In this document: in pieces, positions 3,220-5,925 of the stretch
How the letters are laid out: each line of letters starts with the position of its first letter
Numbering within the stretch: the stretch's first letter is position 1
Assembly (NCBI GenBank): GCA_028822375.1
Contig: JAPKDW010000005.1
Span: 1-43,582 of the forward strand
Reading direction: 5' to 3'
DNA from: Opitutaceae bacterium
GTDB taxonomy: Bacteria; Verrucomicrobiota; Verrucomicrobiia; Opitutales; Opitutaceae
DNA length: 43,582 nt
Program-made: the position numbers and the translations under genes
The notes under the pieces: generated by a model
Seen by the model: only the letters and a program-made list of their open reading frames with translations
Told to the model about the DNA's origin: nothing
Database searches by the model: none

Positions 3220-5925
3220 TTACTTGAAGGAGATCCAACCGGATTTCGAATCCGACAGCGGATTGTAAGGGGAGGTTTCTTTTTTGATTATCAAGCCTTG
3301 GTTGCCCCGCTTTTGCGAATCTTGTAGTTGACCGTGGATTTGATCGATTGAGTCGAGATGAGTGACAGGCGAAATACGAAGTTTCGGGTTCACTGAGAAG
3401 GAATATAGACGGCTTTTGCGTTCTGAAAGCGGTTGATCGACAAGGGTATCGCCATTGTTCCAGAGCAAGTCGTGAAGCCAGAGCAGCGTATCGGCTTCGT
3501 CGCTCAACAGAAGTTCCGCCGCGGGACGTTCGAGTCGTTCGCGCAGCTTCGAATAGGGTAGCGGGGCTTCTTTTTCCCAGGCGACGAGTGTTCCATCGGC
3601 GATAAAATCTTGGGGAATAAGCGTAGCGGCTTCGGTTATTTCGGGAAATTTGTGAGTGATGGAATTCCCTTGGGCGTCGTACATTTCGACACGTTCATCG
3701 AGTTTGTGGATTTGGCAGCGGAATCCGTCGTATAGGTCTTCGACCCAGAGCGGCGCTTCGAGAGTTGAGAGGTATTCAAGGTCGATCTGCCCTCGGCTGG
3801 AAGTGACTAATGAGAGGGGGAAGAAGAGCTGGATCGGGATGTATTCGAGCATGTTGTCCAGAGCTGCATTCGCTATGCGTTCGAGATCGGAGCAACGAAA
3901 ATTGGCCTGTCGGACCGTATCTAAAGGACAATTGAATCGGAGGGCCAGGGCTTCTTCGATGATCGACTCGGTGACGTTTGTCTTTAAATCGCCTGCGATT
4001 AACCGGCTTAGATATTTGCCTTCGACGGGTGCGAGTTTTCGGTATTCGTCGGCGAGGACAGAGTGTTGGTATACCGGGTTGGGCCCTTTTTCTAAGAGAG
4101 CGAAAGTCGATCTGAAATGGCCTAAGGTCCGGCCGCCTGCTTGGGATTCGGATAGAAGGGAAGCGAGGGCGGTCTGTGGATCCGGGTTTTCCTGCTTACG
4201 ATCCTTGAAGTCGGCTTCGCTGGAATCCGAGGCGAAGAGAATGGCTTGCTTGTTTAACTTTCCGTCTACTCGGATATTGCGTCGCGATGCTCTTGGAAAA
4301 ATCTGACCGGCGAGGAAAAGGCTGGCGGTGGCGATCTCCGTTGCCGGGAGGCTTGAGAGGTACTGCGCGATGATTTCTGCCTGTTTGCTTCGGCTTTCAG
4401 TTTTCGAGAGAGCTTCGCAGGTGTTTGCAAAATGAAGAATGGCGTCGCCGCTAGGAGTTTTAGTGGAAGGGGAGTGAGTAGAAGGAGTGGTTTTCGGCTT
4501 CGGTCGAGTGACGGCAGGGATACCGAGACCCATTTGATTTTGACTTCCTAGGGCCCAGGCGGCTATTCCGCGATCATTGAGAGTTTCGGCGAATTCTTTG
4601 GCGAAGCCATGGGTTGTGTAGACGATTTTAGGAGAGACTTGTTCGACGAAGTCTTGAAGGTCCAGGAAATCGGCGTGGTCTGAAAGCGGAAACGATCGAT
4701 CGGCCTGGTTTCGATATTGAGCGGATGGATCGATGGCCCAACCCGATATCATTGCTGTTTTCCGGTTCGGGATTTTGGATAACCAGTCCGAATTTGCTGC
4801 AAGAGGAGGGCTGATGATAACGCGGCCATGATGGCTCGGGAAATCGAATTCGGAATAGGAGGGGAAATCGAAACCGATTTTTTCGCACGCTTGGGTCATT
4901 TTGAAAACCTGCGGATGAACCATGATTTCGAGCTTGGCTCCAGAAAGCGCTTTCAGAATCTCCTGGGCTTTGCCGAGGCTGTAGCCGAAAAGAATAGGCG
5001 TTTCGCCGTTCTCGAGCGTGTCTCTACAAAAACTGATGATGTCTTGAATGACCTCGGAAGCTGGAGGGAACGTGTATCGAGGAATTCCGTACGTGGTTTC
5101 GATTACGAGCGTGTCGGCTTGAGGAACGACACAGGCTTCGGCAGCGAGGTTTGGACTGAGCTTGAAGTCGCCCGAATAGAGAAACGTTTTTCCTTCTCGC
5201 TCCAGCCAAAGCATCGCGGATCCAGGAATATGGCCAGCTGGGTAAAGGCGGGCATTGGTTCCTGGCTCGATCTCGAATGGTTCGTCAAAATCGAAGGTTT
5301 GCCAATCGCGTTGGCCTGGCATTCGAGCTTGAAGCAACTGAGCCGTGCCTTGAGAGCAGAGGATGGAAGCGTGCTTACCGAAGTGGTCAAAGTGAGCGTG
5401 GGAAATGAATGCCCTGGGAACGGGCTTTCGGGCATCGAGATGCCAGTCGATTTCCGGGAGATAGATCCCATTTCGCTTCTCGACTTTCCAAGTCATTGCG
5501 AGTCTCAAGATCCCTTTACGATCGAGGCTGATCCGTCCTGGACCGATGAATACAAGGGAGAGCAATGCTAGGCCGATTTGAAAATGGACGAGGAGGGAAA
5601 GATCGACTCCCTTGCTATGTTGTATCAGATTCGCGATAGCGAAACCCGTGATAATCGTCAATAGGAGCGCGATACTGCGGGTTAGGATGCCGAGAATGAG
5701 AAACAGTCCTCCAACCGATTGGATAACTGCGGATGCTGCTCCAAAAAACAGGTGAAACCCAGTGATGCCGATTAAGCCAACGGGGCCGCCAACTTTTTCA
5801 TAGCTGTCAGTTCCGCTGACAAGCAGCGGAAAACCATGGAAGGCCATAAGCGCTCCCGTCCCTAGACGGAGATAGAGCACTCCTAAATAATCGAATTTAC
5901 TTAAACCTGCGAGCGATAGCTTCAT
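3220..5925 (-). CDS. Fusion protein: DoxX-like membrane domain + MBL/beta-CASP ligase-associated exonuclease + degenerate ATP-dependent DNA ligase module
   Basis: Single 901-aa frame. DoxX-like N-terminus (about aa 1-140, four hydrophobic segments, 'GPGRISLDRKG'). MBL motifs 'SHAHFDHF', 'AGHIPGSAM', 'YSGDFKLSP', 'LSDHADFLDLQDFVEQVSPKIVYTTHG'. Then a ligase N-terminal-like domain ('EGKYLSRLIAGDLKTNV') and a nucleotidyltransferase-like domain 'APLWVEDLYDGFRCQIH'. Confidence 0.85.
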   Translation of the reverse strand: MKLSLAGLSKFDYLGVLYLRLGTGALMAFHGFPLLVSGTDSYEKVGGPVGLIGITGFHLFFGAASAVIQSVGGLFLILGILTRSIALLLTIITGFAIANLIQHSKGVDLSLLVHFQIGLALLSLVFIGPGRISLDRKGILRLAMTWKVEKRNGIYLPEIDWHLDARKPVPRAFISHAHFDHFGKHASILCSQGTAQLLQARMPGQRDWQTFDFDEPFEIEPGTNARLYPAGHIPGSAMLWLEREGKTFLYSGDFKLSPNLAAEACVVPQADTLVIETTYGIPRYTFPPASEVIQDIISFCRDTLENGETPILFGYSLGKAQEILKALSGAKLEIMVHPQVFKMTQACEKIGFDFPSYSEFDFPSHHGRVIISPPLAANSDWLSKIPNRKTAMISGWAIDPSAQYRNQADRSFPLSDHADFLDLQDFVEQVSPKIVYTTHGFAKEFAETLNDRGIAAWALGSQNQMGLGIPAVTRPKPKTTPSTHSPSTKTPSGDAILHFANTCEALSKTESRSKQAEIIAQYLSSLPATEIATASLFLAGQIFPRASRRNIRVDGKLNKQAILFASDSSEADFKDRKQENPDPQTALASLLSESQAGGRTLGHFRSTFALLEKGPNPVYQHSVLADEYRKLAPVEGKYLSRLIAGDLKTNVTESIIEEALALRFNCPLDTVRQANFRCSDLERIANAALDNMLEYIPIQLFFPLSLVTSSRGQIDLEYLSTLEAPLWVEDLYDGFRCQIHKLDERVEMYDAQGNSITHKFPEITEAATLIPQDFIADGTLVAWEKEAPLPYSKLRERLERPAAELLLSDEADTLLWLHDLLWNNGDTLVDQPLSERKSRLYSFSVNPKLRISPVTHLDSIDQIHGQLQDSQKRGNQGLIIKKETSPYNPLSDSKSGWISFK

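Follow-up and report, generated by a model that had tools for sequence, protein, structure and literature searches.

A predicted pseudo-DNA-ligase conserved on an SNM1/Artemis-type exonuclease in the Opitutaceae

The window analyzed here, a stretch of 43,582 nucleotides from an Opitutaceae bacterium, encodes an MBL exonuclease that carries a ligase domain deprived of all adenylyl-transfer residues and of its OB fold. The catalytically dead domain is conserved among related genomes, and it is probably kept as a non-catalytic arm that holds a partner or gates the nuclease. Its loss of catalysis is read from codons and alignments, and its retention from the strength of purifying selection.

The gene lies within an open reading frame of 901 codons on the minus strand (positions 3220–5925). 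Residues 1–139 (5509–5925, minus strand) correspond to a DoxX-family membrane protein (PF07681, matching residues 15–97, E = 1.9e-7), a part missed by the first-pass annotation, whose description of the protein was otherwise correct. In relatives, DoxX is encoded by a separate upstream open reading frame in the same frame, with its stop a few codons ahead of the nuclease start. Comparison of the junctions reveals ATC-TAG in the nearest relative versus ATC-TTG in the window, so that a TTG codon (5506–5508, minus strand) stands in place of the nearest relatives' DoxX TAG stop; this stop loss, which joins the membrane protein gene to the nuclease–pseudo-ligase gene, is found in the window genome only. 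Same-genus homologues of about 758–771 residues start at Met144 after a stop codon, and Met144 is probably the true start of the nuclease–ligase protein, which would then comprise 758 residues (3220–5496, minus strand). The downstream gene encodes a DUF3108 protein (PF11306; 2241–3209, minus strand) and is a conserved neighbor of the MBL or MBL–ligase gene across the family by synteny, ligase-less MBL loci included (L126–L135), an adjacency that suggests a conserved functional link. A downstream-encoded OB fold was rejected, as this next open reading frame belongs to a different family.

Residues 150–460 (4546–5478, minus strand) form an MBL/beta-CASP exonuclease domain that resembles SNM1A, Apollo, and Artemis in the PDB and matches the complete domain of TIGR04122 (E = 1.4e-67), the ligase-associated DNA damage response exonuclease of the SNM1/Artemis/Apollo superfamily. 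The zinc-ligand motifs HAHFDH, GH, GDF, SDH, and THG are intact, and the metal ligands (HxHxDH, H, D, DH, H) are invariant in 33/33 sequences of the core set, in line with the earlier impression of an apparently intact nuclease. The protein differs from TIGR04122 members in its fusion to a pseudo-ligase and in its score of 227.8 bits, which lies under the NCBIfam equivalog cut-off of 325.

The remainder of the protein is homologous to ATP-dependent DNA ligases. It consists of the N-terminal DNA-binding domain (DBD; PF04675, E = 8.6e-14, residues 498–661; 3943–4434, minus strand), in which the contact arginine and the following MLA segment are eroded, and the adenylation (nucleotidyltransferase) domain (PF01068, E = 2.7e-25, residues 720–901; 3223–3768, minus strand), from which the catalytic residues are missing. 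Codon reading and alignments place Leu731 (CTA, 3733–3735) in motif I instead of the AMP-accepting lysine, Thr779 (ACA, 3589–3591) in motif III instead of glutamate, and Gln876 (CAA, 3298–3300) in motif IV, again instead of glutamate; in addition, Ala751 (3673–3675) replaces the arginine of the SRD motif that follows motif I (all on the minus strand). The C terminus (3220–3267, minus strand) comprises YNPLS, a degenerate motif V (WISFK), and a TAA stop directly after 'SGWISFK', and the PF01068 match extends to the last profile position with no residues beyond it, leaving no OB fold. The first-pass annotation had rested its prediction of a dead ligase on the first three of these codons and this stop, and both they and the ligase homology were confirmed, the latter by the two domain matches and by alignment to solved ligases, in which Leu731, Thr779, and Gln876 fall opposite the canonical lysine and glutamates of the archaeal enzymes 2cfm, 3rr5, and 9df9.

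A displaced lysine in the adenylation pocket was considered and rejected: neither the motif nor the PDB ligase alignments offer a competing lysine, and Lys881, which is conserved, corresponds to the ordinary motif IV lysine. Relative to TIGR04120, the LigB/cisplatin-response ATP-dependent DNA ligase model, the window protein is homologous across the first 387 of 526 positions, with the lysine, both glutamates, and the OB fold missing, and reaches 101 bits where the cut-off is 400. The features expected of a competent ATP-dependent DNA ligase (motif I lysine, motif III and IV glutamates, OB fold) are all absent, and a dead ligase domain without these signatures of catalysis is, as far as its sequence tells, a pseudo-ligase. 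Structure prediction for residues 490–901, a check proposed earlier, yielded a model (27-row alignment, pLDDT 77) that matches archaeal DNA ligases (best Foldseek E = 9e-26) and also DNA-bound ligases such as LIG1; its input alignment contained active viral ligases, and the match therefore indicates fold compatibility rather than independent proof. Homology to the ligase fold was found on all counts, namely PF04675, PF01068, and the predicted fold.

A profile of the dead form was used to search 252 genomes of the family, where the MBL gene exists in three states: alone (about 330–350 residues, in most genera), fused to a full ligase (about 900–950 residues), or joined to a truncated one, in open frames 758–863 residues long. 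The lysine and two glutamates at positions 731, 779, and 876 are present in 51/51 full-type fusions, a set that leaves out the contig-edge case G160 and the partial sequence G107, and any one of them in 0/13 truncated forms, a split far too clean to be due to chance. Whether L731, T779, and Q876 are themselves conserved had been raised in the first-pass annotation: the absence of the catalytic residues extends to all 13 dead forms, but the replacements vary freely (L6 R1 E6 at 731; T6 L1 V5 A1 at 779; Q3 K4 and one each of D, G, S, R, N, and A at 876). The OB fold is likewise missing from 13/13 truncated proteins, which have 0–9 residues after motif V compared to a median of 139 in the 51 active forms. 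An ending of the type [YF][ND]PL[SA] is common to 13/13 dead forms in both clades and occurs in 0/51 active ones.

The dead set comprises seven genomes of g1, the genus of the window, and 6/8 genomes of a second genus (g20), while the remaining two g20 genomes (G227, G228) and both genomes of genus g13 (G022, G171) carry active-type fusions; flanking genes place the active forms of G228 and G022 at the same locus as the dead form. Among the fused proteins read, no intermediate between the active and dead states was found except in G120 (L209), whose fusion keeps the lysine and both glutamates and whose frame diverges and stops just past motif V, possibly an early loss of the OB fold or a contig artefact. 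Every one of the 33 core-set sequences has G734, R736, C737, Q738, H740, W783, D819, G874, G877, and K881, and the dead forms retain DGxR and the motif IV lysine in 12–13/13 cases and D733 in 12/13. Both dead clades share the changes Q560, G753, V781, P788, S792, L867, L890, and S891. A sequencing error or a chimera was rejected as the source of the window's substitutions: an independent MAG (L032/G002, 83% identity) has them too, as do five more genomes of the genus.

Selection on the dead domain is comparable to that on active relatives. For the adenylation domain, pairwise dN/dS amounts to 0.05 between the window and G002 and 0.09–0.15 in g20 dead pairs versus 0.08–0.12 in active pairs, and the window's own MBL domain gives 0.07, with dS close to or above 1 in several of these pairs. 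Neutral evolution simulated over the same distance would leave some 17% identity and roughly eight stops, in contrast to the observed 86% and none, and no stop or frameshift occurs in the 13 dead-form genomes. The stem was fast: the window protein and active G228 share 63% identity in the MBL domain but 46% in the adenylation domain; between the active proteins of G022 and G228, the corresponding values are 61% and 68%. Purifying selection that persists after the loss of catalytic residues (dN/dS 0.05–0.15) is what distinguishes a conserved pseudoenzyme, and low dN/dS combined with a fast stem characterizes a pseudoenzyme that, judging from these comparisons, gained a new constraint. The dN/dS values and the conservation in 13 genomes thereby uphold the earlier view that the domain does not look like random decay. 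It had also been reasoned that relatives with the canonical lysine and OB fold, together with relaxed selection here, would mark a simple pseudogene; such relatives exist (G227, G228, G022, G171), but relaxed selection is absent. The whole gene is broken in two other genomes of the window's genus: in G007 (L145, L040) it is a true pseudogene with seven in-frame stops across the MBL and ligase parts, and in G005 it has a large internal deletion and a broken frame. A pseudogene in the window was rejected on the dN/dS values and open frames, unlike those two copies.

Catalytic competence could have been lost once or twice. RpoN and MBL trees group the g20 dead forms with the g20 active forms and place g1 beside active g13, synteny does likewise, and a single dead clade is rejected on the MBL domain (AU p = 0.0096). 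The ligase-only tree instead unites the dead forms (UFBoot 100), with AU p = 0.018 against g20 monophyly; this value drops in significance to p = 0.066 when the motif columns are removed and to p = 0.34 when their removal is combined with a C10 mixture model on a 15-taxon subset, a behavior that long-branch attraction and parallel change would produce. An alternative history, compatible with any function, would involve one inactivation and later movement of the dead ligase part between g1 and g20 by transfer or recombination. It accounts for the ligase-only clustering and for the ending shared by 13/13 dead forms; however, it conflicts with RpoN, with synteny, and with the MBL domain of the very same gene, it loses its tree signal under the mixture model, and it does not fit raw identity, dead G225 being 53% identical to active G228 and 42% to the window. 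This history is considered unlikely. Two independent inactivations, one in g1 and one inside g20, are favored by these sequence comparisons, though not proven. That the two genera hold convergent pseudo-ligases with the same ending, now serving as regulators or adaptors of the nuclease and forming a natural pseudo-DNA-ligase family, is a proposition on which the evidence is evenly poised.

The retained fold has also changed outside its catalytic residues. In known ligases, the nick- or AMP-sensing Arg751, the DBD residue Arg648, the MLA segment (707–709), the motif V lysines, and the OB fold face DNA or AMP; the dead forms have lost the OB fold entirely, and the other elements, motif V included, are degraded or lost in them. 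The adenylation domain has also become more acidic, with a mean net charge of −8 to −10 in dead forms versus −0.8 in active ones (MWU p ~1e-5, uncorrected for relatedness). With DNA-contact residues eroded and the domain more acidic, DNA binding is rated below a protein-binding or nuclease-gating role.

The surroundings of the gene point to other ligases for sealing. A profile search found only one PF01068 protein in the window genome, which led a hidden second ATP-dependent ligase to be rejected, and elsewhere in the genus further PF01068 proteins occur only in G005. That genome (L144, L016, L027, L057, L123) carries, on a separate contig, a complete canonical cluster of MBL, ligase, Lhr-type helicase, and PdeM, and G229 has the canonical cluster together with an intact dead fusion. 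In the window genome, PdeM gave no match and the ligase-associated helicase none over threshold, so that neither partner of the Lhr-Core/PdeM/Exo/Lig repair cluster was found linked or present; in the Opitutus-like relatives G014, G016, and G023, both lie beside the fusion. Ku was not found in the window's genus, and Ku-dependent end joining was rejected on that ground. NAD-dependent LigA is encoded in 19/19 genomes tested and, given the absence of Ku and of other PF01068 proteins outside G005, LigA-type ligases would be expected to carry out sealing. A second, divergent NAD-dependent ligase, a LigA paralogue, occurs in 7/13 dead-form genomes versus 1/4 nearby active ones, a difference that is not significant (G000:C353, G006:C206, G029:C11, G224:C50, G226:C6, G229:C125, G230:C63, G228:C7), and could represent compensation. 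A viral search returned no instance of the fusion. Many genomes of the family hold the MBL gene without an attached ligase, which indicates that the nuclease does not strictly depend on the ligase domain.

Based on these data, a model is proposed in which the ancestor was an MBL–ligase fusion with an active ligase. All adenylyl-transfer residues and the OB fold would have been lost, most likely twice, in g1 and inside g20, after which the leftover helical domain and adenylation fold would have come under new purifying selection. The dead domain may link the nuclease with a partner protein or gate its access to DNA ends, with sealing left to NAD-dependent LigA, an arrangement reminiscent of the structural part that Lig4 plays alongside Artemis. 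Alternatively, the domain could act mainly as a non-catalytic module that binds DNA ends or nicks and places the exonuclease on damaged DNA, which would agree with the retention of the DBD and adenylation folds, with the DGxR and motif IV lysine of nearly all dead forms, and with the likeness of the predicted model to DNA-bound ligases, such as LIG1. The lost or variable DNA- or AMP-facing elements and the more acidic adenylation domain speak against this role, which is accordingly viewed as rather doubtful. The first-pass annotation had proposed a pseudo-ligase that serves as a scaffold for nicked DNA or for a partner; the pseudo-ligase stands, and the nicked-DNA part has become less likely.

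A functionless ligase that drifts, and remains in frame merely because it sits behind a needed nuclease, would explain why the ligase is often missing while MBL alone suffices, why the stem branches are fast (41–46% adenylation-domain identity to active relatives versus 63% for MBL), and why G005 and G007 hold broken copies. This vestigial reading is largely refuted by a present dN/dS as low as in active ligases and in the MBL domain of the window protein, by the uninterrupted frames of 13 genomes, and by the near-identical end point reached in two genera, and it appears quite improbable. Still less probable, and very remote, is a different nucleotide or NMP-transfer reaction that employs unusual residues of the pocket. 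D733 (in 12/13), G734, R736, and K881 are kept and the frame of the pocket is otherwise conserved, but the covalent lysine position accepts L, R, or E, both metal- or AMP-binding glutamate positions are unconstrained, and no new candidate catalytic residue is fixed in both clades. The non-catalytic, partner-holding or nuclease-gating arm remains the preferred reading.

MBL–ligase fusions are themselves already known, and the naturally conserved pseudo-ligase form is unreported in the literature searched. Pseudoenzymes are frequent among kinases and proteases; for DNA ligases, no report of a natural inactive or pseudo form was found in a search mostly outside subscription journals. An MBL–LigB fusion is mentioned for Opitutus terrae (PMC10140301, citing Ejaz and Shuman 2018), and others are described from Antarctic Dry Valley metagenomes, where the expressed ligase module DV-1-1-Lig was active (PMC10140301). 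The window protein has the same domain order, MBL/RMMBL nuclease, DNA_ligase_A_N, and DNA_ligase_A_M, and the exact MBL–LigB form is present in sister genomes of its family; in contrast to those fusions, which possess an OB fold, the window form lacks the OB fold and the catalytic residues, and its genome reveals no Lhr-Core or phosphoesterase partner. A functional analogy exists in eukaryotic NHEJ, where engineered inactive Lig4 (K273A) still promotes repair (PMC9638927), a non-catalytic ligase that structurally aids repair near the MBL nuclease Artemis. The two are not homologous as systems: Lig4 K273A is engineered and full-length, with OB and BRCT domains, and the window's genus lacks Ku.

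For annotation, the family carries a warning, in that a PF01068 match or the label 'ATP-dependent DNA ligase' does not imply ligation. Active and dead versions occupy one locus in sister species of one genus, and the system makes it possible to ask what a ligase domain that does not ligate contributes to an SNM1/Artemis-like nuclease, a question that parallels the structural role of inactive Lig4 in eukaryotes.
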